Source: Methanoregula sp. (GTDB lineage: Archaea > Halobacteriota > Methanomicrobia > Methanomicrobiales > Methanospirillaceae). From it: a DNA stretch of 64,000 bases. The notes beneath the pieces are model-generated. The model ran no database searches, was not told the origin of the DNA, and was given only the letters and a program-made list of their open reading frames with translations. Positions 17,608 through 29,853 of the stretch are shown one piece after another (the stretch's first letter is position 1; every line of letters starts with the position of its first letter). Both the position numbers and the translations under genes were made by a program. The stretch is taken from the NCBI GenBank assembly GCA_026394605.1, contig JAPKXY010000020.1:1-64000 (forward strand). Reading direction: 5' to 3'.

Positions 17608-18468
17608 ATGGATGACGCACGGATTCAGGACGAGATCAATAAGTATAAAAAATTTAAAAAAGTGGACGGCGCAACATACCGGAAGGTGAACCAGTTCCTC
17701 CGAAAACGGACCTACATCACCGCACGTGAATGGGCGCTTGCCCGGCTGTGTACGGATTTCAGGACAACTGGCGGCGCAGAGATGACATTTATCGGGGAGC
17801 ACCTGCCTCAGCTTGTCCCCTTCATGGAAGATACTTATACCCCTCAGGCTGTGAATCAGGCACGCAATTCCTTCAAAAAGAAAGTGCGCAAGGCAAGTGC
17901 CACGTTTTTCTATGGTACGATGTGCGGTTTTTTCACCACAGACGAGCTGGATGACCTGCTCTTTGAGGCAAGCGAGGTGGCACGGTTCCTTCTTGAAGTG
18001 GAGGGCACCACACTCGATATCGATGAGGAGATAGAAATTGAGGATCGTATTACAAAGGTCATGAGAAGTGTTGGCGAAGCGGCAAAAACAATCCTTAAAA
18101 CCCGCAGCATGGAAACGGAACAGAAAACCAACGAGATCCGCTCGTCAAATGACATCACGGACAGCACACTGGCAATCAACCCGTATCCCCCAGTTAAAAT
18201 CAAAAGAACCAAGAACAGGAAAACCAGGCAGCCGCAAACGACTGTTCTTCCACAAGAGACAATCGAAAAGACAGGTAAGGGTAAACCTGAACCACAATTA
18301 CCACCTAATGAAACGTTAATTGATCAATTCCCTTACATAAAAGAGACTTTACCCGAAGAGATGACCGTCCGTAAAAAAGATCGCCAGAAGAACGGATTAC
18401 ACGGAATCAGTGATGCCGATACTACGATCGAAAGTACCGGGACTGAACCGGGAGCCGATCAGCAATGA
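17608..18468 (+). CDS. DUF5806-like conserved archaeal protein
   Basis: 286 residues. Residues 1-165 match a family I recall from haloarchaea and Methanomicrobiales (DUF5806): VDGATYRKVNQFLRKRTYI, TAREWALARLCTDFRTTGG, TFIGEHLPQLVPFMEDTYTP, and FLLEVEGTTLDIDEEIEIED. The C-terminal 120 residues are low-complexity, charged and Pro/Lys-rich, probably disordered. It is soluble, and its function is unknown. The stop overlaps mobB by ATGA, and mobB overlaps glmM the same way, so the three form one translational unit. Confidence 0.78.
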   Translation: MDDARIQDEINKYKKFKKVDGATYRKVNQFLRKRTYITAREWALARLCTDFRTTGGAEMTFIGEHLPQLVPFMEDTYTPQAVNQARNSFKKKVRKASATFFYGTMCGFFTTDELDDLLFEASEVARFLLEVEGTTLDIDEEIEIEDRITKVMRSVGEAAKTILKTRSMETEQKTNEIRSSNDITDSTLAINPYPPVKIKRTKNRKTRQPQTTVLPQETIEKTGKGKPEPQLPPNETLIDQFPYIKETLPEEMTVRKKDRQKNGLHGISDADTTIESTGTEPGADQQ

Positions 18469-18926
18469 AAATCGTCCATATTGTGGGGCAGTCAAATGCC
18501 GGCAAGACCACATTTATCAAACAGTTAATCCCCAAACTTGAGAGAAAAGGACGTGTGGGGGTAGTGAAACACTTGGGGGACCATAGATATAATCTCCAGA
18601 AAGGAAAGGATACAACCGAATTTTTCGATAGCGGGGCGACCATCTCAATCGGCATTGATCATGAGAAATCAGTCGCCGCGATTCGGACCACTGCGCTGGA
18701 CGACATACTCCAATTCCTCTTTTTGGAAGGGATTGAATATACAATCATCGAGGGTTTCAAGACCCGGGAGTTTCCAAAAATCGTCATCGGAGATCTCCCT
18801 GCAGAGAACACTGTCCTGTCAAACCCAATGGTGAAAGACGTGCTCTCATCCCTCGACCGGTTTGAAGACTATACCCCTGGAATTAAATCGGGAAAATCTC
18901 ATAAGAAAAGGGGCACGACCAGATGA
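18465..18926 (+). CDS. mobB: Molybdopterin-guanine dinucleotide biosynthesis protein MobB-like GTPase
   Basis: 153 residues. The P-loop GQSNAGKTTFI is at residues 8-18, and VKHLGDHRYNLQKGKDTTEFF carries the MobB family's conserved KHxxH region, followed by a GATISIG element and IEGFK. MobB helps MobA attach GMP to molybdopterin for Mo/W enzymes such as formylmethanofuran or formate dehydrogenases in methanogens. ATGA overlaps link it to the DUF5806-like gene before and glmM after. No mobA lies in the window. Confidence 0.85.
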   Translation: MKIVHIVGQSNAGKTTFIKQLIPKLERKGRVGVVKHLGDHRYNLQKGKDTTEFFDSGATISIGIDHEKSVAAIRTTALDDILQFLFLEGIEYTIIEGFKTREFPKIVIGDLPAENTVLSNPMVKDVLSSLDRFEDYTPGIKSGKSHKKRGTTR

Positions 18927-20314
18927 AACGAAATATCCATGCAAAACGACTGTTCGGAACCAATGGGGTCCGCGGTATTGTCGGAAAAGAGATTACCCCC
19001 GAACTCGTCCTTCATATCGGAGAGGCATTCGGTTCGATGCGCCCGGGACGCATTGCGGTTGGCAGGGATACACGAACCTCTGGTGAAACCCTGATCCTTG
19101 CGCTGAAATCGGGACTGTTGGCAACCGGCTGTGATGTCGTGGATTGTGGGATCCTGCCCACACCTGCCCTTCAGTTCCTTGTAAAAGAGGAATTCGACGG
19201 GGGAGCGATGATTACCGCGTCCCACAACCCCCCTGAATACAACGGCGTCAAGATCATCGAACCAGACGGTACTGAAATGAGTGATGAAGAGACCATACTC
19301 CTCGAACAGCGTTTATTTGATAAATCGTTTGCATTAAAACCCTGGAACAAGGTGGGACGAGAAGCGAGTGCGCCCGACCTCATCGATCACTATATCAACG
19401 CAATTGTCGGGCATTTTCCCCCAAATATCGGAAAGGGCATGCTTGTGGCTGTTGATCCGGGTTCTGGTCCTGCTTGCCTGACAACCCCAAAAATTCTAAA
19501 AAAACTCGGGTGCAGGGTGATGACTGTTAATGGTGTAATGAACGGGACATTTCCCGGAAGGCTGCCGGAACCATCCATGGAAGGACTCAAAGCACTTTCA
19601 TCACTGGTCGTAAGTTCCGGTACATCTTTTGGTGTTGCCCATGATGGAGATGCCGACCGTGCGGTCTTTGTCGATGAGAATGGTGTATATATTGAGGAAA
19701 ACCAGGAATTTGCTCTTGTAGCACAGTATCTCTGTCAGCAACAAAAAGGGATCGTTGTTACACCTGTGAGTACTTCGCAGTTAGTCGAGGCAGTTGTTGC
19801 AGCTAAAAAAAATTGCAGCGTCACGTACACAAAAGTCGGAAGCATCTATGTGGCCCGGACCATGCATTCGCTGATGAATGAGGGGAAAAAAGTTGTGTTT
19901 GGCGGTGAGGGGAATGGGGGGCTCATCTTTCCCGATCATCAGTTCTGCAGGGACGGGGGCATGACAGCAGCTATGATGGTGTCAATTCTTTCAAAAACAA
20001 AAAAACCACTTTCTGGTCTCGTTGCCTGCCTTCCGAAAAGGTTCATGATCAAGGATAAAATAGCGACACCTGATGCACAGAAGGTCGTTAAAAGACTGGA
20101 ACAAAAATTTCCTCACGACAGGATCGATCTCACTGATGGTGTAAAAATTACCCGTAATTCAACATCGGCATTGATACGGGCATCGGGAACAGAACCCCTT
20201 ATCCGGATAATTGTTGAATCTGATCAGAGGGATCATGCCGAATCATTGTTCCAAGAACTCATGAAACGTGTCTCAGAATGTCTGAAAACTACAACAAAAC
20301 AGAAAAAAAGATGA
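18923..20314 (+). CDS. glmM: Phosphoglucosamine mutase / phosphomannomutase
   Basis: 463 residues of the alpha-D-phosphohexomutase superfamily. The phosphoserine loop ITASHNPPEYNG places the catalytic Ser at 100, the metal-binding loop is HDGDADRAVFVDENG, the sugar loop is GGEGNGGLIFPDH, and the phosphate loop is RASGTEPLIRIIVE. It converts glucosamine-6-P to glucosamine-1-P (or mannose-6-P to mannose-1-P) for UDP-sugar synthesis; archaeal members often do more than one. It ends the coupled run DUF5806-mobB-glmM. Confidence 0.92.
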   Translation: MKRNIHAKRLFGTNGVRGIVGKEITPELVLHIGEAFGSMRPGRIAVGRDTRTSGETLILALKSGLLATGCDVVDCGILPTPALQFLVKEEFDGGAMITASHNPPEYNGVKIIEPDGTEMSDEETILLEQRLFDKSFALKPWNKVGREASAPDLIDHYINAIVGHFPPNIGKGMLVAVDPGSGPACLTTPKILKKLGCRVMTVNGVMNGTFPGRLPEPSMEGLKALSSLVVSSGTSFGVAHDGDADRAVFVDENGVYIEENQEFALVAQYLCQQQKGIVVTPVSTSQLVEAVVAAKKNCSVTYTKVGSIYVARTMHSLMNEGKKVVFGGEGNGGLIFPDHQFCRDGGMTAAMMVSILSKTKKPLSGLVACLPKRFMIKDKIATPDAQKVVKRLEQKFPHDRIDLTDGVKITRNSTSALIRASGTEPLIRIIVESDQRDHAESLFQELMKRVSECLKTTTKQKKR

Positions 20315-20540
20315 TCCGGCGAACATTGAATTGTCACATCAAGAAAAGACTAAAAATTTGATAATATCGTAAAAACTAATAATTAAACCGATAAATCTTT
20401 AAAAAAACGAAAAATTTCTGTTTATTTCTGGAACAAATGAAAATTCTCTGGAATAATTAAATGAATTCTATAAGGTAAATAAAAAGATTTATTAATTGTT
20501 TTGTCAAAATGAGTGTATCTATAAAAAACGTTGTGAATAC

Positions 20541-23500
20541 ATGGTTATCTCCCAATCCCAGACACTGAGAAAAATAGAGAACGCTGCATCACTCAATGAC
20601 AGCCCCGGTCTCCAGAAGATCATCAACAGGGCTATCCTTGATTCCGTACGCCGGGACCGCAAGGACTTGCTCAGGGAAATCAACCGGGTGCTTATTGAAA
20701 CAGCAATAAAAAAAAATAATCCGGATATTATCATAGGGCTGAAAGGGATTTCAGATGATACGATAGTTGAATCTTTTTCAAAAATAATCAAACACTATAT
20801 CAAGACACGGGATGAAACGTGGCTTCAAACACTATTGAACGTCACGCACGGATTGGAAAGAAAGAGCAATCAATCCAGAATGTTTGCCATTCTGACTAGG
20901 ATGCTGATTGAAACAGGAGTATCAGAATCGAATCCGGTCTTTATCAGACACGGCCTGGAAACGCTTCAATGCATAACGGTTAAAAAATATCGCTCGGAGA
21001 TCATGGGTGAGATTGTACCCCCCCTTATAAGCTGGGCGATCAGAACAACGGATATCGAACTTTTACACAGGGTATATTCCCTGATCGAAGATATCGGGGA
21101 TATCTCGAAACGCTCTGTTTTACAGGATACATGTGCACAATCGGTTGCAGCAGTGGCAATAGCGGGAAAAAAAACCACACTCCTTTTTGACAGCATCCGT
21201 TTTGCATGTACCATCAAACCAAAAACACGACGCGAAACCTGCATTTCATCGATAATAGATAAAGCAGTTAATACAACGCTCGGTAAAATTTCATTTGCCA
21301 TTCCGGAATGTATTTATCTCTTCGATGATTTTTCGGAAGAAACACGACTTGAAATCATCGATCCCCTCCTCAAACATCTTATCAATGATGAAAAAAACCA
21401 TAAAACACTCCTCGCCAGTCTCGATACTATTTCTAAAAAACTGTCCTTTTCGCAAAAGACCATCGTTACAAACCTGCTGAAAAAAGCGAAATCTGACGGA
21501 AATATCTGGTATCTTTCCACAGCCATGGAGATCCAGGACCGCCTGCCCAATCCCGGCACTTACCCCATCCGCGACGTGGTAAAAGCTGGCATTTCCATTG
21601 CGGAGCATTCCACTACTATGGAGGCATTCACCCTTATTATTCCGATGATTGAAAAAATGGGTGACAAAACACTCTCATCACGCATTTTCATCCAGCTGAC
21701 GCAGGTGATGCTGTCCCTGGGCAGATTCCAGGATGCTCTGGAGTTGTATGCAAAAATTGACGGGGGGCTCGAAAATCTCCCTCATTTTGATGAATGTTCG
21801 ATAACACTGTTTAAACACAGTGTCATGAATGATAACGTCGCTCTTGTAAGTGAATTACTCAAAAAAAAATCGGATAAAAAAATATATTTCACTACGATTT
21901 CGAGGGCGATAACTGATATATGTAAAAATTATTCATTTCAGGAAATTTCCCGGCATATTGATTCAATGACAACTCTCATTTTCCTTCACCCCCATTACAA
22001 CCAGATTATTTTTGAGAGCGTTTCAATTCTTACGAATCGTGGGTTCCTTGAAGAAACAGACCCGACTGTTTTAATAAAATTTTCCGTTCCTATCAGTGAC
22101 AGGTCCATCAAAGAGCGGACGCTCTCTATGATTGTCATTAAACTCGCGAAGCTGGGGGTTAAAACCAAAAACCGTGATCACCTCCAGCGAGCTGTTGGTC
22201 TCACCTGCCTGATTGAAGAAGAACAGACCCGATCGGCGACATTAAACAGTATCATTGATGATGCAACCGTGCTCGCGGTTCTCGATGGCGATCTCGATCT
22301 CCTCATGAGAATGCGGGAATGGAGCTCCTCCCTTCTATCACCAGATGTGGAAATTTTTGCCATGGCAAAGATCATCGATGGTATCATAACCTATGCCATC
22401 GACATGCGGTATCCAACCGCTCTTGAAGAGGCATACCGTATCACGCAGGATATCCATGACCCCTCAATGAACAAGGGATTGATTGAACGCATCTGTGAAT
22501 GTTTTGTAAAAATCGGGTGTCTTCTGTTGAAAGACAATCAGGTATTCACACAACCGGATAATATAAAACCTGCTCTAAACCCATTTGAACGCGGGTTGGA
22601 GTTGTTAATCCAACACGGTAAAAGCGAAGAGCGATCCCTGAAAGTGGCAAATTTAATTGATATTATCCTTGGGTTCCTGCAGGAGTACTATCACCCATAT
22701 TATCTCATTCCCCTTGTCCTGTATTCGCTGGAGATTGAAAATACCCTTGAGCGGCATGCAATGGTCTCAAGAATTGTATCCAATATCAAGATGGCTATTG
22801 ACTCCGTAGACTCGACAGATCCTTATGAGATACTTGTAAATCATCTTGAGCAAATTGACTATATCCACAATGACCCTGCATTACTCGGCCTTATGGTGCG
22901 TGTAGTCAGACAGATCAAGGACCCGTTTACCCGACTATCACATTTATCCTCTCTTGCTGATTTGTATATACGTCTGGACAACCATACGAAAGCAGAGGAG
23001 GTCCTCACCACAATCCATTCATCTCTTGAACAAGTTGGGGAAATCTCTCAAAAAGTGCTCATCCTTTCCGATCTCATATATCATTATTCACGGGTTTCCG
23101 AAGATAGTGCACAAAAATACCTGCGGGAAGCACTGCATCTCATCTCAACTATTGAATATGATCGCGAATCGATGGCACGCAAACTGGTCGTGATTGCTAT
23201 TGCCAGATTGCATGAGAAAAAACCGGATCAATCACTGGTAGAATTAGCCTTTGAGGTCATATCCAGAATCCGAGATCCAATCGAATATACTGAGGCGATG
23301 ATCTATGTCTACGGCATGGTACGGGGCGATCAGGCCCGTCGCAAAGATATTATCATAAAAATTTTAGAGAAATGCGATACAATTACATCTCCTGCACAAA
23401 AAGCATCGATCCTTCTGGATATTGTACCATTTATCATCCATGACGACGATTACGAAATGGCATTTATCCTTCTCAAGCATGTTACGCTTGTGGCACGGTC

Positions 23501-24098
23501 CATCAGAATTCCTTCAATTACTGATAGTATCAGGGCAGGGATTTCAAACGCATATTATATGGTATTTCAAAAAAGCCATAATGAAAAAACATTGAAAACT
23601 GCGATTGAATGTGCCCATGAGATAAATAATGAAGAAACCCGCATCATTGTTTTAAACCAGATTGGGCATGAGAGCATCGACAGATCCTCTCACTATTTAA
23701 AAATCAAGACTTATATCGAGAAAATCAGCACAGAAAGCTACGGTTCAGGACAGATTGATGTACTTGAGAGATTGATCCGATCAGATTCACATAGAGGAAA
23801 AATCGTACAGCATTTCTGCAATGCGGCAGTGCTACTCAAAAATTATGGTAAAAACAAGATAGCAAAACGGATGGTAGAAGCAGCGATCGATGAGGCGAGT
23901 ATTATCAGGCCACTGTCACGACGTGCTTATGTGTTATGTGATATTGCATTGATTCTTCATTCCGCAGGGTGCGTAGAGGAGGAACACACCATCATTGATA
24001 TGGCAGTGAACACTGCGACAAATATCCGGCAATTTCATATTCGGGACGAGGTTTTCGATAATCTCGCGTACGCGATGAGATATATGCAGGTGGTATGA
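20541..24098 (+). CDS. Giant alpha-helical repeat protein (TPR/HEAT-like solenoid)
   Basis: About 1185 residues from the ATG at 20541. A TTG at 20496 would add a Cys-rich 15-residue leader and has no clear ribosome site. The whole chain reads as paired amphipathic helices of roughly 38-46 residues, best seen toward the end (TKAEEVLTTIHSSLEQVG, AQKYLREALHLISTIEYDRE, SLVELAFEVISRIRDPIEY, ETRIIVLNQIG). No signal, membrane segment, catalytic motif or cysteine cluster is seen. Such solenoids usually scaffold protein-protein contacts. The upstream 200 bases are AT-rich with an ATAAAAAGATTTATTA element that can serve as promoter. Its stop overlaps acyP by ATGA. The family is not recognised beyond the fold. 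Confidence 0.8.
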   Translation: MVISQSQTLRKIENAASLNDSPGLQKIINRAILDSVRRDRKDLLREINRVLIETAIKKNNPDIIIGLKGISDDTIVESFSKIIKHYIKTRDETWLQTLLNVTHGLERKSNQSRMFAILTRMLIETGVSESNPVFIRHGLETLQCITVKKYRSEIMGEIVPPLISWAIRTTDIELLHRVYSLIEDIGDISKRSVLQDTCAQSVAAVAIAGKKTTLLFDSIRFACTIKPKTRRETCISSIIDKAVNTTLGKISFAIPECIYLFDDFSEETRLEIIDPLLKHLINDEKNHKTLLASLDTISKKLSFSQKTIVTNLLKKAKSDGNIWYLSTAMEIQDRLPNPGTYPIRDVVKAGISIAEHSTTMEAFTLIIPMIEKMGDKTLSSRIFIQLTQVMLSLGRFQDALELYAKIDGGLENLPHFDECSITLFKHSVMNDNVALVSELLKKKSDKKIYFTTISRAITDICKNYSFQEISRHIDSMTTLIFLHPHYNQIIFESVSILTNRGFLEETDPTVLIKFSVPISDRSIKERTLSMIVIKLAKLGVKTKNRDHLQRAVGLTCLIEEEQTRSATLNSIIDDATVLAVLDGDLDLLMRMREWSSSLLSPDVEIFAMAKIIDGIITYAIDMRYPTALEEAYRITQDIHDPSMNKGLIERICECFVKIGCLLLKDNQVFTQPDNIKPALNPFERGLELLIQHGKSEERSLKVANLIDIILGFLQEYYHPYYLIPLVLYSLEIENTLERHAMVSRIVSNIKMAIDSVDSTDPYEILVNHLEQIDYIHNDPALLGLMVRVVRQIKDPFTRLSHLSSLADLYIRLDNHTKAEEVLTTIHSSLEQVGEISQKVLILSDLIYHYSRVSEDSAQKYLREALHLISTIEYDRESMARKLVVIAIARLHEKKPDQSLVELAFEVISRIRDPIEYTEAMIYVYGMVRGDQARRKDIIIKILEKCDTITSPAQKASILLDIVPFIIHDDDYEMAFILLKHVTLVARSIRIPSITDSIRAGISNAYYMVFQKSHNEKTLKTAIECAHEINNEETRIIVLNQIGHESIDRSSHYLKIKTYIEKISTESYGSGQIDVLERLIRSDSHRGKIVQHFCNAAVLLKNYGKNKIAKRMVEAAIDEASIIRPLSRRAYVLCDIALILHSAGCVEEEHTIIDMAVNTATNIRQFHIRDEVFDNLAYAMRYMQVV

Positions 24099-24394
24099 AC
24101 GAGAAAACACTCCAGATCAATATTTCTGGAAGGGTTCAGGGAGTGGGATTCAGGGCCTGTGTCCGGCGCATTGCGTTTGATCTGCATGTTTCGGGAACGG
24201 TCATGAATCTGCAAGATGGGAGAGTCCAGATTTATGCAACAGGGGATCCGATTATTCTTGAAAAACTTGTATCGATGCTCTATGGGTGTCCCCGTGCACA
24301 AATCCGGGATATCCGGGTTATTGATGTCAATTTCCAGCGATTCGAGGATTTTACCATAATCAAAGGAGAAAGAAAGGTCAGTACAGGACTTTAA
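24095..24394 (+). CDS. acyP: Acylphosphatase
   Basis: 99 residues, full length. The signature SGRVQGVGFRACVRRIA contains the phosphate-binding Arg20, and GTVMNLQDGRVQIYATG contains the catalytic Asn38, at the standard positions. It hydrolyses acyl phosphates such as carbamoyl phosphate or acetyl phosphate. The start overlaps the stop of the giant repeat protein (ATGA), and the 3' end overlaps the Cas1-like gene on the other strand by 17 bases. Why an acylphosphatase should be co-translated with a scaffold protein is unclear. Confidence 0.93.
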   Translation: MNEKTLQINISGRVQGVGFRACVRRIAFDLHVSGTVMNLQDGRVQIYATGDPIILEKLVSMLYGCPRAQIRDIRVIDVNFQRFEDFTIIKGERKVSTGL

Positions 24395-25310
24395 ACGTAT
24401 CACGCTCTTTGAGCGCTTCACAGAGCAGATATACCTGTTCATTAATCCTGTCACTATAGATCGTTTTTTGCAATAATTTGATCAGATGGTGTACACAATC
24501 ATCGGACAGGATACAACGGCCGGAACTCAACTCAAAATCTTCCATGCTGATGGAGTTCATTACAAGCTTAAACACGGGTTCATCGATCATGCTGGCTTTG
24601 AACGGATCCATGAGATCGAGGACGAGACTCCCTTTTCCCATGTGCATAAACCCATTATCAGGGTCAAGGCAAGCCCCCAGAACGGAGACGCAGCAATTCC
24701 CATAGAGCATCGCATACCCCAGCGAGAGCAGGGAGTTCACAACATCCTGCTGGGGGGGAACCGTTCTTCGTTTAAATCCCAGTTCGTGTGAAAGAGTTCT
24801 GGACAAAATTTCATAATACATATCGCTTGTCAGACGATTCAGCCGGCGGATTTCGTCCAGTTTTATCAGATATTCCAGTTCGTCAAAGGCTTTATGAATG
24901 AACTCAGACTCACCTTCATAGAGCAGCGGTTCGCCACGGGATTCCTCGATTTTTTCGAGAAAAACAAGCCTCGATTTTAATGATCCCTGCGCAATTTCTA
25001 TTGCATACCTGTGTCTCGGTGCGCCATCCTGCAATTTTCGCATGACACTTTCGGTATCATTCCCATAAGGCCGGAGAATACCAATTGGCGTTCCATCAAC
25101 TTCAAAAAATGAAACAAATGCCCCATGTTTGATCAGGGTCGCTACGGTTGACGTATGAATGGTGTGCCCACCCACGAGAAGTAAGTGGTTCACATTCTCG
25201 ATAGGATATTCTTCAGAATTGTTTTTTTTCTGGATGATCAGCTTTTTTTGGGTTGATTTGATATGTGCGCCAAAACCACTCACCAGTAACCACGGAATTT
25301 GTGACGTCAT
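24378..25310 (-). CDS. CRISPR-less Cas1-like protein, predicted catalytic Glu replaced
   Basis: 310 residues, close to the Cas1 length. The N-terminal beta domain (WLLVSGFGAHIKSTQKKLII, NVNHLLLVGGHTIHTSTVAT) and the C-terminal helical domain (QQDVVNSLLSLGYAMLYG, LDPDNGFMHMGKGSLVLDLM, then DPF) align well with Cas1. The metal-binding His223 and Asp232 are present. The catalytic glutamate, expected in an IEG..AR.YW-like motif, appears as Asn158 in RRLNRLTSDMYY, so nuclease/integrase activity is doubtful. No cas2, cas4, effector or repeat array is visible in the 64 kb. It is convergent with acyP. Either a non-CRISPR Cas1 homologue with another job, or an orphan. Confidence 0.85.
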   Translation of the reverse strand: MTSQIPWLLVSGFGAHIKSTQKKLIIQKKNNSEEYPIENVNHLLLVGGHTIHTSTVATLIKHGAFVSFFEVDGTPIGILRPYGNDTESVMRKLQDGAPRHRYAIEIAQGSLKSRLVFLEKIEESRGEPLLYEGESEFIHKAFDELEYLIKLDEIRRLNRLTSDMYYEILSRTLSHELGFKRRTVPPQQDVVNSLLSLGYAMLYGNCCVSVLGACLDPDNGFMHMGKGSLVLDLMDPFKASMIDEPVFKLVMNSISMEDFELSSGRCILSDDCVHHLIKLLQKTIYSDRINEQVYLLCEALKERDTFKVLY

Positions 25311-25470
25311 CGTTTGAGGAAAAGGATCGAGTACGATAGATAATTACTACCGTGTTCCCTCCTGATTAAGGCATCGTTTTTTTTATTATTATTAAAGAAA
25401 TGTTGATAAATCCACTCGTTATCTGGTAAATTCATCCCAGAACGTTTTGTAGTATCAGTTCTCCTTGCGC

Positions 25471-25520
25471 AGAATATAAACGATAAAAAACCTCACCTGT
25501 ACAATATCATGCTTTAGCAT
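25471..25520 (+). promoter_or_regulatory. Promoter and short palindrome upstream of the paaK pair
   Basis: AGAATATAAAC (25471-25481) is a good TATA box, with the paaK start 55 bases further on. Around the expected transcription start lies ATGCT-TT-AGCAT (25509-25520), a short perfect palindrome, followed by GAGGTGA (25525-25531) as ribosome site. The palindrome could be an operator or leader hairpin. Confidence 0.45.
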
Positions 25521-25534
25521 ACCAGAGGTGACGG

Positions 25535-26827
25535 ATGTTCTGGGATAAAAAAATTGAGACATTAAAACGAGATGAACTTAAATCACTTCAGCTCAAGCGT
25601 TTAAAAAAAACAGTTCGGCAGACGCTGAATGTTGATTTTTATCGCCAACATCTGTCAAATGCCCGTATTCGGGTAGAAGATATCAGGACACTCGATGATA
25701 TTGAGAAGATCCCCTTTACCAAAAAACAGGATCTCAGGGACGGGTACCCATTCGGTTTCCTTGCTGTACCGTTGAATAATGTAGTCAGAATTCACACAAC
25801 TTCCGGCACGACGGGAAAGCCGACTGTGGTCGGGTATACAAGAAAAGATCTGGACACATGGGCGGACCTGATCGCACGGAACATGACGATGGTCGGCATC
25901 ACGGAAGATGATGTCTTCCAGAACATGGTCAATTATGGCATGTTCACCGGTGGGCTCGGGTTCCACTACGGCGCGGAGAAAATCGGTATGACCGTGATCC
26001 CGAGCGCGACAGGAAACACCAAACGCCAGATCGAGATGATTGCGGATTTCGGGGTAACCACGATCCACTGCACACCCAGCTACGCTATGCACCTCTCCGA
26101 GGTCGCCGAAGAGATGCATGCATCACTCGATAGTTTAAGAACCGGCATCTTTGGCGCCGAACCGTGGTCTGAGACGATGCGCCATTCCCTTGAAGAGCGC
26201 CTCGGGGTGACCGCCTTTGACTCGTACGGACTCTCTGAGCTGTTCGGACCCGGGGTCGCGTTTGAATGTCCCGAGCGGAACGGTCTGCACATCTGGCACG
26301 ATGCCTATCTCATCGAGATAATCAACCCGCAGACTGGCGAACAGCTCTCAGATGGCGAACGCGGCGAGCTCGTCGTCACCCCGCTTATGAAAGAAGCCAT
26401 GCCTCTCCTGAGATACCGCACCGGGGATATCACGATGAAAATGGAGGATGGCTGCATCTGCACACGCGGTCAGAAGATCGCACGGATCACCGGAAGAAGC
26501 GATGATATGCTGGTCATCCGCGGAATCAACGTCTTCCCCTCCCAGATCGAGCACGTGCTCTTAAAAATCCCGGAAGTGGGCAATCAGTTTATGGTCTATG
26601 TGGACAGAGTGAATCACTTGGATGAGATGATTGTGGACGTTGAGATCAACAGGGACAATTTTAGCGGGGAGCTTGCTGACCTTGCACGAATCCAGAAAAA
26701 AGTCGTAAAAGAACTCAGGGACGCACTCGAACTCCGGACAACGGTTAAACTCGTTGAACCGGGATCGCTACCCCGCTTCGAAGGCAAGGCAAAGAGAGTC
26801 ATCGACCGGAGGGGAGATACAATATGA
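25535..26827 (+). CDS. paaK: Phenylacetate--CoA ligase family protein (first copy)
   Basis: 430 residues of the ANL adenylate-forming superfamily. The ATP-binding core is HTTSGTTGKPTVVGYT near residue 90; the later motifs are DSYGLSELFGPG and RYRTGDI, then ITGRSDDMLVIRGINVFPSQ. It activates an aryl or acyl acid to its CoA thioester with ATP; in methanogens such enzymes are linked to recovery or use of aromatic acids made by indolepyruvate:ferredoxin oxidoreductase. A good ribosome site GAGGTGA precedes it. The next paaK overlaps by four bases (ATGA). Confidence 0.9.
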   Translation: MFWDKKIETLKRDELKSLQLKRLKKTVRQTLNVDFYRQHLSNARIRVEDIRTLDDIEKIPFTKKQDLRDGYPFGFLAVPLNNVVRIHTTSGTTGKPTVVGYTRKDLDTWADLIARNMTMVGITEDDVFQNMVNYGMFTGGLGFHYGAEKIGMTVIPSATGNTKRQIEMIADFGVTTIHCTPSYAMHLSEVAEEMHASLDSLRTGIFGAEPWSETMRHSLEERLGVTAFDSYGLSELFGPGVAFECPERNGLHIWHDAYLIEIINPQTGEQLSDGERGELVVTPLMKEAMPLLRYRTGDITMKMEDGCICTRGQKIARITGRSDDMLVIRGINVFPSQIEHVLLKIPEVGNQFMVYVDRVNHLDEMIVDVEINRDNFSGELADLARIQKKVVKELRDALELRTTVKLVEPGSLPRFEGKAKRVIDRRGDTI

Positions 26828-28125
26828 GATGCTGGGACCCGCGTATTGAGGAACTGCCAACAGCAGAACTCAAGCAAATGCAGTATAAGTTATTGAAAAG
26901 CCTCGTGTACCGGTTATTTAGTTTTTCACCGTTTTATCATGACCGGATGAAGGAACAGAACGTCCATCCGGATGATATACGGGAGCTTTCCGATGTCAGA
27001 AAATTGCCATTTATGTTCAAACGCGATCTCAGGGATAGTTACCCGGACAAAATATTCACAGCGACGCAGGAAGATCTTGTCCGCTACCATGTCTCGTCAG
27101 GGACGACCGGAAAGCCGACAGTCGTGGGGTATACACAGAATGACCTGAACAGCTGGACAACGTCACTCGCCCGCGCCCTGACTTCCATCGGGCTGGGCAG
27201 AGGCGATGTGATCCAGGTCAGTTACGGTTACGGCCTGTTCACAGGAGGGCTGGGCCTGCACTATGGCGCCGAGCGGATCGGGGCAACGGTGCTTCCGACC
27301 AGTGTCGGCAACACCGAGCGGCAGATCGAACTGATGCAGGATCTTGGCTCAACCGCAATCGCCTGCACTCCCTCATACCTGCTCCACATGGGGGAAGTTG
27401 CCGAGAAGATGGGACTTTCCATTAAAAAAGATACCAGATTGCGGGCAGGCATCCTCGGTGCCGAGCCCTGGACTGAAAGGATGAGGAAGCGGATCGAGGA
27501 ATGGCTGGGGATAAAGGCGTTTGACATCTATGGTACCAGCGAACTCTCCGGTCCGATGTTCACTGAATGCTCCGAACAACTCGGGTTCCATGTCTGGTCG
27601 GACCTCGCACTGACCGAGATTATCGATCCAAAGACCGGTGAACGGGTTGCACCGGGAGAGAAAGGGGAACTGACCGTCACCATCCTCCAGAAAGAGGCGC
27701 TCCCGATGATCCGGTACCGGATCGGTGACATCACCAGCATTGATGAGGACATCTGCCCATGCGGCAGGACGCACCCGAGGGTCCAGCGGATCCAGGGGCG
27801 CGTTGATGACATGCTCATCATTCGGGGCATTAATGTCTTCCCGTCGCAGGTTGAGTACGCGCTCATGGCCATCCCTGAGGTCGGGCAGCACTTCCAGATC
27901 GTGGTCGACCGCAAGGGGGCGCTTGATGACATGCTCGTCAGGGTCGAGCTGACCAAGGAATCGTTCTCCGACAAGATTACCGACCTGATGATTATCAGGG
28001 ATAGAATCGAACACAAGTTGCGCAATGCACTCAACGTGAACGCGAACGTGGAGCTCGTAGAGCCGGGTTCATTGCCGAGATATGAGGGAAAATCAAAGAA
28101 AGTCCTTGACAGGAGGTCGTTGTAA
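26824..28125 (+). CDS. paaK: Phenylacetate--CoA ligase family protein (second copy)
   Basis: 433 residues, clearly homologous to the preceding gene over its whole length. Shared motifs are SSGTTGKPTVVGYTQNDL, FTGGLGLHYGAERIG, DIYGTSELSGP, RYRIGDI and QGRVDDMLIIRGINVFPSQ. It keeps the CPCG pair (residues about 312-315) where the first copy has a CICTRG sequence, so the two differ near a possible metal site. It probably arose by tandem duplication; they may differ in substrate (for example phenylacetate versus indoleacetate) or form a heteromer, which is inference. Overlap of one base with the ACT gene. Confidence 0.9.
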   Translation: MRCWDPRIEELPTAELKQMQYKLLKSLVYRLFSFSPFYHDRMKEQNVHPDDIRELSDVRKLPFMFKRDLRDSYPDKIFTATQEDLVRYHVSSGTTGKPTVVGYTQNDLNSWTTSLARALTSIGLGRGDVIQVSYGYGLFTGGLGLHYGAERIGATVLPTSVGNTERQIELMQDLGSTAIACTPSYLLHMGEVAEKMGLSIKKDTRLRAGILGAEPWTERMRKRIEEWLGIKAFDIYGTSELSGPMFTECSEQLGFHVWSDLALTEIIDPKTGERVAPGEKGELTVTILQKEALPMIRYRIGDITSIDEDICPCGRTHPRVQRIQGRVDDMLIIRGINVFPSQVEYALMAIPEVGQHFQIVVDRKGALDDMLVRVELTKESFSDKITDLMIIRDRIEHKLRNALNVNANVELVEPGSLPRYEGKSKKVLDRRSL

Positions 28126-28559
28126 TGGATGTGAAAAAATTTGTGATCAAACAGATATCGGTGTTTTCCGAAAACCGCCCGGGTCGGCTTGCCGCGATTG
28201 CCCATGCGCTGGGAGAAGAGAATGTCAATATTCTCGCATTTTCCATCGCCGAAGCAAATGGGTTTGGTGTGGTCCGGGCGCTGGTCGATCAACCGGAGAA
28301 AGCATATAAAAAACTGTCATCAATCGGGTTCAATGTCGCGTTCACCGATGTCATTGCCGTCCATATGCAGGACAGGCCCGGCGGGCTATATGAGATTGCG
28401 AAGATGCTCGGTGATGCCAATATCAATATTGAGTACTCCTATGCCTATTCGGGAAAAGAGGGGGCGGTTCTCATCCTGCGTGTCGATCAGGTCGTTGACG
28501 CCATTGAGAAGATTTCAAAATCCGGCGCGACCCTGATCGAAAGTTCGGTCTTCCATTGA
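28125..28559 (+). CDS. Tandem ACT-domain protein
   Basis: 144 residues, made of two ACT domains: residues 3-70 (KQISVFSENRPGRLAAIAHA) and 72-140 (VIAVHMQDRPGGLYEIAKML, then NINIEYSYAYSGKEGAVLIL). ACT domains bind amino acids and control enzymes. Paired ACT proteins are commonly placed directly behind phenylacetate-CoA ligases in archaea and bacteria, where they are assumed to sense an aromatic or branched amino acid. One-base overlap with the second paaK supports a joint role. Confidence 0.88.
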   Translation: MDVKKFVIKQISVFSENRPGRLAAIAHALGEENVNILAFSIAEANGFGVVRALVDQPEKAYKKLSSIGFNVAFTDVIAVHMQDRPGGLYEIAKMLGDANINIEYSYAYSGKEGAVLILRVDQVVDAIEKISKSGATLIESSVFH

Positions 28560-28566
28560 AAAACAT

Positions 28567-29853
28567 TCACTTCTTTTCCCACTTTATCAGCTCTGCCACT
28601 TGGGAGAGCGTGCTCCCGCGCCGGATCTCCTCCCGGATTCTTTCTTCATTTTTCCTGACTTCCAAGGCCCTGCGGGCGATTTCATAGGCGCGCTTTTTTG
28701 GGACGACAACAACCCCGTTTTCGTCACCGATGATCCAGTCGCCGGGGTTCACAACCTGCCCTGCGCACTGTATCTCCGCATTGATCTCGCCAAAACCCTT
28801 GGGTTCACCGGCATTGGGAACAATTGCCTTTGCAAAGGTGGGGAATTTTGTTTTCCGGATCTCCTCTACATCCCGCACCGCACCATCGATGACCACCCCC
28901 GCGATTCCCTTTTTTATGCAGCTTATGGTTGCCAGTTCCCCCCACGGGGCAACACGGGTTATGCTGTCATTGTTAATCACGATTACATCACCTGGGGATG
29001 CGAGATCGATCGCCTCAACCGGCTTTGCCCAGTCGCCGGCAAACGTCTGGACCGTGACCGCCCTTCCCACCATCTTCACATTGCCGCAGATAGAGATTAT
29101 TCCTTCCATCGCCCCTTTCCGGTGCATTGCATCAGAAACATTCGGCGAAGAAACCCGGGAAAAAATTTCCCGGATCCTGTCATCCAGAGAACCTTTCTGT
29201 ACCGGCTGGAGTGAAGGGTTGTCAATCGACATCCGGATCGCGGCGGTAGACCCGGTCACATCCGCCGAGCGGACAATTGCCCCGCCAACAATGACCATTA
29301 CAGCGCCATGCTGAACCGCTTGGGCTGCAGTCACCACATCAAGCCCGCCTGCCACGGCAACCGGAACCGTGACTTCCCCGGTGATTGCGGCGAGGAGGTC
29401 GATGGAGCTCTTCCCCATCATCTGCTGGTCAATGCCGACATGGGCTACGATGATGTCGATACCCATCGATTCCATTTGTTTTGCTCTGGGCACCGGATCG
29501 GGCGTGTTGATCAGGTCCGCCATCAGCCGGACACCGTAAAGGCGTGCCGCCCGGACTGCCTCGGCAATGACCGAATCATCAGCGTCAGCAAGAATGCAGA
29601 CAATATTGGCGCCGGCTTTTGCCGCCATCTCGACCTCGAGGGCACCGGTGTCGGCGATCTTCATGTCGGCAACGATCATATGGTCAGGAAACTGCACTTT
29701 AAGAGTCCGTACCGCCTGCATTCCCTCACTCTTGATTAAGGGAGTCCCTGCTTCAATCCAGTCCGCCCCGCCACGCACAGCTTCTTTGGCAATCTGCAGG
29801 GCACGGGTCAGTTCGGTGAGATCGAGTGCAACCTGCAGAACCGGTCGTTTCAT
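28567..29853 (-). CDS. 3-hexulose-6-phosphate synthase fused to RraA-like domain
   Basis: 428 residues in two domains. Residues 1-210 are a HPS TIM barrel: [17 protein letters not shown], the DxKxxD motif ADMKIADTG, and [17 protein letters not shown]. Residues 225-400 are RraA-like ([65 protein letters not shown]), a family of regulators and aldolases. In methanogens HPS runs in reverse to make ribulose-5-P from fructose-6-P by releasing formaldehyde. No phosphohexuloisomerase gene is adjacent. Fusions of this kind are known from archaea; the second domain's reaction is not certain. It is convergent with the ACT gene. Confidence 0.87.

Follow-up and report, generated by a model that had tools for sequence, protein, structure and literature searches.

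Cas1 proteins that stand outside CRISPR loci, the Cas1-solo proteins, have reportedly been in print since 2013–2014, with Makarova 2013 said to be the founding paper. The closest described family is Cas1-solo group 1, which the accessible sections of Krupovic 2014 (PMC4046053) present as exclusive to Methanomicrobiales, as without evidence of horizontal transfer, and as lacking the full active-site set in every member; the accessible part of a review (PMC9939771) restates this picture, and the available excerpt of PMC9755687 reads the group as probably vestigial, with non-conserved catalytic residues. Casposases (Cas1-solo group 2) are described in the same sections of PMC4046053 as keeping all catalytic residues and as sitting with PolB inside terminal inverted repeats. 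Our search of the openly licensed literature found neither a functional study of group 1 nor a paper on a linkage of its cas1 gene with acylphosphatase, although such a linkage may be in print (Makarova 2013).

The window analysed here, a 64-kb stretch of Methanoregula DNA, carries a minus-strand gene (24378..25310) that is a member of Cas1-solo group 1. It has no cas neighbours, its orthologues are restricted to Methanomicrobiales and fall in a clade separate from other Cas1, its active-site set is incomplete, and there is no sign of horizontal transfer. It does not differ in kind from the published group, the one departure being an orthologue (L049) that does carry Glu, His and Asp together. 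The first-pass annotation of this DNA could be read as implying a new type of Cas1, a reading that falls because the type has already been published (PMC4046053). What is added here for the group is its near-universal presence in the order, purifying selection, drift of the Glu and His positions at the background rate, a reversal of charge, and linkage to a solenoid protein and an acylphosphatase.

The annotation had placed a 310-residue Cas1 homologue at these coordinates, and the minus-strand open reading frame and its matches to Pfam Cas_Cas1 (PF01867; E 3.1e-52, residues 8–281) and NCBIfam cas1 (E 6.4e-45) bear this out. Among solved structures the closest in sequence is the Cas1 of Archaeoglobus fulgidus (4n06, E 2.1e-17). 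An AlphaFold2 model computed from 45 aligned sequences (the window protein plus 44 drawn from 57 non-redundant named loci) has a pLDDT of 92.4 and a pTM of 0.89; in a fold search it matches full-length Cas1 structures with Z up to 30.1 and the DNA-bound casposase 6opm with Z 29.5, and the matches listed are Cas1-family proteins and their complexes only. A complete Cas1 fold is thus shown by prediction.

Whether residue 158 corresponds to the catalytic Glu of Cas1, a question raised by the annotation, is answered by alignment: Asn158 (codon AAT on the minus strand, 24837..24839) lies opposite the Glu of the I-E-G motif of 4n06. A joint alignment of 61 orthologues with 39 other Cas1 proteins places Glu in this column in 39/39 of the latter vs 5/61 of the former, and the catalytic Glu is indeed gone. 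(Among the 39 reference proteins, 20 are encoded within about 1.5 kb of Cas2, with coordinates compared by eye, and 3 more near Cas2 by Pfam; for the other 16 CRISPR status is assumed.) His occupies the metal-binding His column in 39/39 other Cas1 vs 30/61 orthologues, and Asp232 is kept in all 100 aligned sequences. The window protein has both metal-binding residues, His223 (24642..24644) and Asp232 (24615..24617).

Sampling the family more widely gave 125 distinct orthologues, where sequences differing in the first residue only were merged and close relatives are still included. Position 158 is His in 70 of these, Ser in 28, Glu in 6, Phe in 5, Tyr in 4, Ala, Gln and Asn in 3 each, Asp in 2, and Leu in 1. 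Position 223 is His in 73/125, the residues elsewhere including Asn, Arg, Ser and Tyr, and Asp232 is present in 125/125. On the tree of 61 orthologues position 158 changes 18 times and position 223 changes 19 times, close to the median of 17 over 308 columns, so that neither is more constrained than the average residue. The statement that His223 and Asp232 are kept thus holds for the window protein, and for Asp232 family-wide, but not for the His, which drifts within the family; retention of the metal-binding His scarcely exceeds that of the Glu, and the idea that it is specially kept has to be given up. At the level of sequence, these counts establish that the metal-dependent integrase/nuclease site has been lost and that its Glu and His positions drift freely. 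All three residues occur together in only 1/125 distinct orthologues, L049 (identical to L116 except at the first residue), so activity is possible in some members. L055, a relative of L049, has Glu with Asn223, and the Glu of L049 is probably a chance return. As candidates for a compensating glutamate we considered Glu153 and Glu167, which share the predicted helix 151–170 with residue 158; lying 5 and 9 residues from it, they should by helix geometry face away from the old site.

No CRISPR system accompanies the gene. The window Cas1 is the sole PF01867 match in the source assembly (1.62 Mb, 60 contigs, 91.67% complete), a search of this 91.67% complete assembly for Cas2 (PF09827) gave no match, no 20-mer reaches three copies in the 64-kb window as one would in an exact-repeat array, and no cas gene was found by Pfam among the nine neighbour genes scanned at 17608–29853. 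The annotation's view of a Cas1 without CRISPR is thereby upheld beyond the window as regards Cas1 and Cas2 genes, and a Cas1 belonging to a CRISPR system just outside it is rejected, the assembly having no other Cas1 and no Cas2. Across the order Cas2 is present in 51/121 genomes (PF09827 search), so most genomes keep cas1-solo without it. With the Cas1 of CRISPR adaptation the protein shares the whole fold and the columns Gln94, Tyr165, Arg182, Asn192, Asp232 and Asp243; it differs in having Asn158 in place of the Glu of the Glu/His/Asp set, in a His that drifts in the family, in belonging to a separate clade, and in being acidic rather than basic. It resembles casposases in its fold and in being a Cas1 outside CRISPR, but a casposase identity was rejected on residues and neighbours: Glu158 is missing from the active site, and no polymerase (PolB) was found among the nine other genes scanned at 17608–29853. 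A viral or mobile gene was rejected as well: a scan of viral contigs returned 38 pattern matches and no relative.

A search with the window protein gave a match in 113/121 Methanomicrobiales genomes, and 112/121 have a strong cas1-solo orthologue, the match in G006 (E 6.3e-5) being too weak to count as one. A match is present in 88/89 of the genomes whose completeness is 90% or more and whose contamination is 5% or less; the exception is G120, in which the solenoid gene ends early, as at a contig end. In a phylum-wide sample of 392 genomes, searched with a 33-row profile (98 genomes gave no match and may include genomes of the order), the 94 listed genomes of the order score at least 344 bits, and outside the order scores reach no more than 158 bits. 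That 158-bit protein adjoins Cas2 and a Csm6-type protein (both by Pfam) and is thus an ordinary CRISPR Cas1. The solo proteins form one clade with 100/100 support in a tree of 35 of the 61 solo and 37 of the 39 other Cas1 sequences, from which the long proteins L202 and L203 were left out and to which no casposase was added on purpose. Of 120 named loci, the best 80 carry titles of Methanomicrobiales, of unspecific Euryarchaeota, or of one Geobacter bin. The last of these (L168, DFYU01000109.1, titled Geobacter sp. UBA4074) has a Methanoregula-type block with a cas1-solo of 53% identity and is probably a case of bin contamination. The Cas1 paralogue may date back to the ancestor of Methanomicrobiales and have come down vertically from it as a core gene.

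The gene is under purifying selection. Values of dN/dS range from 0.06 to 0.33 in 22 pairs of related sequences, one of which is counted twice (L049/L124 = L055/L116) and some of which share a genome; 18 columns are without any change among the 61 orthologues; and Arg156, Glu134, Glu167, Arg171, His49, Cys266, Asp232 and Asp243 are identical in 125/125 distinct orthologues. The first five of these are features of the group, most other Cas1 differing there. The dN/dS values and invariant columns together indicate that the gene is not vestigial.

The charge of the protein has turned. The cas1-solo proteins have a median pI of 6.18 and a net charge of −5, compared with 8.82 and +5 for 21 non-solo Cas1 proteins from this order (Mann-Whitney p 4e-8 for net charge, with relatedness ignored and the long L202 and L203 left out). 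In eight columns the basic residue of other Cas1 has mostly been lost, which together with the acidic charge argues against extensive contact with DNA. Seven basic columns have been gained, at 114, 155, 156, 171, 180, 181 and 265, and basic Lys18, Arg182 and Lys238 have been retained; positions 155 and 156 lie, in the AlphaFold2 model, in the helix (151–170) that carried the Glu. The conserved arginines speak for a ligand that bears phosphate.

We consider the best explanation, with a probability of about one half, to be a non-cutting housekeeping protein that binds such a phosphate-bearing ligand in an arginine-rich pocket where the active site used to be. The predicted Cas1 fold is kept whole, the metal-dependent site has been abandoned, and conservation now falls on arginines and lysines, several of them in the former Glu helix (Arg155, Arg156) and in the stretch 180–182, as well as on Glu134, Glu167, Arg171, His49, Arg265, Cys266 and the old Asp232; these conserved residues may form a single arginine-rich pocket. 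Candidate ligands are nucleotides and the ends or junctions of nucleic acids, and the process served would be a housekeeping one unrelated to CRISPR. The annotation had proposed a Cas1 fold reused for binding nucleic acid without cutting; the loss of the Glu site and the conserved arginines close to the old site in sequence agree with this, the acidic character (pI 6.2 vs 8.8) does not, and binding of DNA or RNA by cas1-solo is possible. Somewhat more tentatively, at less than an even chance, we suggest that this dead Cas1 is a core, CRISPR-independent protein of the whole order, its pocket rebuilt around arginines for a ligand other than that of integration, and serving neither adaptation nor transposition.

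An alternative that we regard as unlikely, yet as the most likely of the rivals, is that the protein is a nuclease-dead, structure-specific DNA binder. A Cas1 dimer would then grip branched or 3′-ended DNA during replication or repair, with a long DNA as its ligand; the non-catalytic subunits of the Cas1–Cas2 integrase hold DNA in this way. The whole Cas1 fold, the similarity to the DNA-bound casposase, the invariant arginines near the old site and the near-universal vertical retention all fit a DNA binder, whereas an acidic protein that has lost eight conserved basic Cas1 columns does not. The same loss of basic columns gives some weight to a somewhat less likely proposal, that the fold was recruited for protein contacts or for a metabolite and that the protein acts as a scaffold or small-molecule binder with no role in nucleic acids. 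Its acidic charge resembles that of other window proteins (20 chosen open reading frames, median pI 6.2) and its new invariant residues lie outside the metal site; the basic columns gained at 155–156 and 180–182, near the old site in sequence, point the other way, and no neighbour gene is present at every one of 60 neighbourhoods.

On the plus strand, convergent with cas1, lie genes for a predicted all-helical (TPR-like) repeat protein of 1185 residues (20541..24098, with the ATG at 20541 taken as the start; the open reading frame as listed begins at a TTG and has 1200 residues) and for a 99-residue acylphosphatase (24095..24394; PF00708, E 4.6e-19). The acylphosphatase frame overlaps that of the repeat protein by four bases (ATGA) and meets that of cas1 tail to tail in an overlap of 17 bases (24378..24394). 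Arg20 and Asn38, which we take to be the acylphosphatase catalytic pair, are kept in the window copy and in 115/115 distinct copies aligned. The repeat protein gave no Pfam match above the cut-off, and its single-sequence model, weak at a pLDDT of 54.7, is all helical. An old conserved block surrounds these genes in much of the order, with DUF5806-MobB-GlmM (17608–20314) on one side and, on the other (25535–29853), two phenylacetate-CoA-ligase-like genes, ACT and HUMPS/RraA.

Conservation of the linkage of cas1 to these two genes in other genomes, which the annotation proposed to check, is borne out. The arrangement of solenoid followed by acylphosphatase, facing cas1, recurs among 60 neighbourhoods across the order and among the best 80 of 120 named loci, and in all 80 of those loci the acylphosphatase faces cas1. 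The solenoid is present in 56/121 genomes and lies beside cas1 in 52 of them (coordinates compared by eye; in G060 as fragments only); of the other four, G094 has a contig break, the G009 and G120 assemblies are without cas1, and in G115 the genes are on different contigs. At L039, L041 and L089 the triplet adjoins putative RNA polymerase genes instead of glmM, whose orthologue in these genomes is far off or on another contig. No solenoid match was found in the other 65/121 genomes of the order, and by subtraction 58 of the 112 cas1-solo genomes are without it; a diverged copy at solenoid-less loci was looked for with a 73-sequence profile run over the window and the 60 neighbourhoods, which recovered 31 clear copies and otherwise only three fragments at L091. 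Presence of the solenoid changes six times on the Cas1 tree, and in the five genomes of the g29 group the acylphosphatase lies elsewhere in the genome. Methanoregula sp. SKADARSKE-2 (L112, CP121470.1, a locus also listed as L091) has an intact cas1, but its solenoid gene is in fragments and one phenylacetate-CoA-ligase-like (AMP-binding) neighbour gene is split. We take this organism, by its strain name, to be the methanogen endosymbiont of the amoeba Pelomyxa schiedti strain SKADARSKE described in the available portion of PMC10579272. The matches to cas1-solo, acylphosphatase, ACT and HUMPS/RraA in this genome extend over nearly their full length.

These data bear on the suggestion that the neighbouring operon is part of the same system, so that cas1-solo, solenoid and acylphosphatase would work together. 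Close linkage stands: the solenoid genomes in which the genes are not adjacent are contig breaks or unresolved, the acylphosphatase faces cas1 throughout the best 80 named loci, and the triplet has stayed together in another setting. An obligatory partnership does not, the solenoid being missing from more than half of the order and broken in the endosymbiont, with several changes of presence on the tree and an acylphosphatase that can lie elsewhere. Part of the linkage is, moreover, ordinary old synteny, since the wider block is conserved too; independent breakpoints are few, and the 3′ overlap, which occurs at some length in 78/114 distinct cas1/acylphosphatase pairs, makes these two genes harder to separate. 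We judge a single working system improbable; for the phosphate-binding Cas1 that we prefer, the solenoid/acylphosphatase operon would be linked yet dispensable, and might perhaps supply a scaffold where it is present.

A still-active enzyme with a rebuilt site, made up for example of His158, His223 and Asp232, or of Glu134, Glu167, His49 and Cys266, is very unlikely. His158 and His223 are combined in 39/125 distinct sequences, always with Asp232, and the other four residues are invariant, but Ser, Phe, Tyr, Ala or Leu can also stand at position 158 and Asn, Arg, Ser or Tyr at position 223, and both positions change at the background rate. That the gene is a vestige being lost, as in the excerpt of PMC9755687, is hardly credible and already contradicted, for although its catalytic positions drift at the background rate, the dN/dS values, the 18 unchanged columns and the retention of cas1 beside broken genes in the endosymbiont all stand against it.

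Known uses of Cas1 are spacer acquisition and casposon transposition, and a dead Cas1 maintained by selection in nearly all members of an order would, if true, be a third, cellular use. The selection data, in arguing against the vestigial reading in the excerpt of PMC9755687, also point to residues for mutation, and cultivated Methanomicrobiales exist, so that the function is open to experiment. Two minor observations concern the neighbours: the acylphosphatases beside cas1-solo have invariant Cys22, Cys65 and Lys57 in 115/115 distinct copies, and the repeat protein, with about 1185–1208 residues across relatives in 56/121 genomes, is a candidate new protein family.
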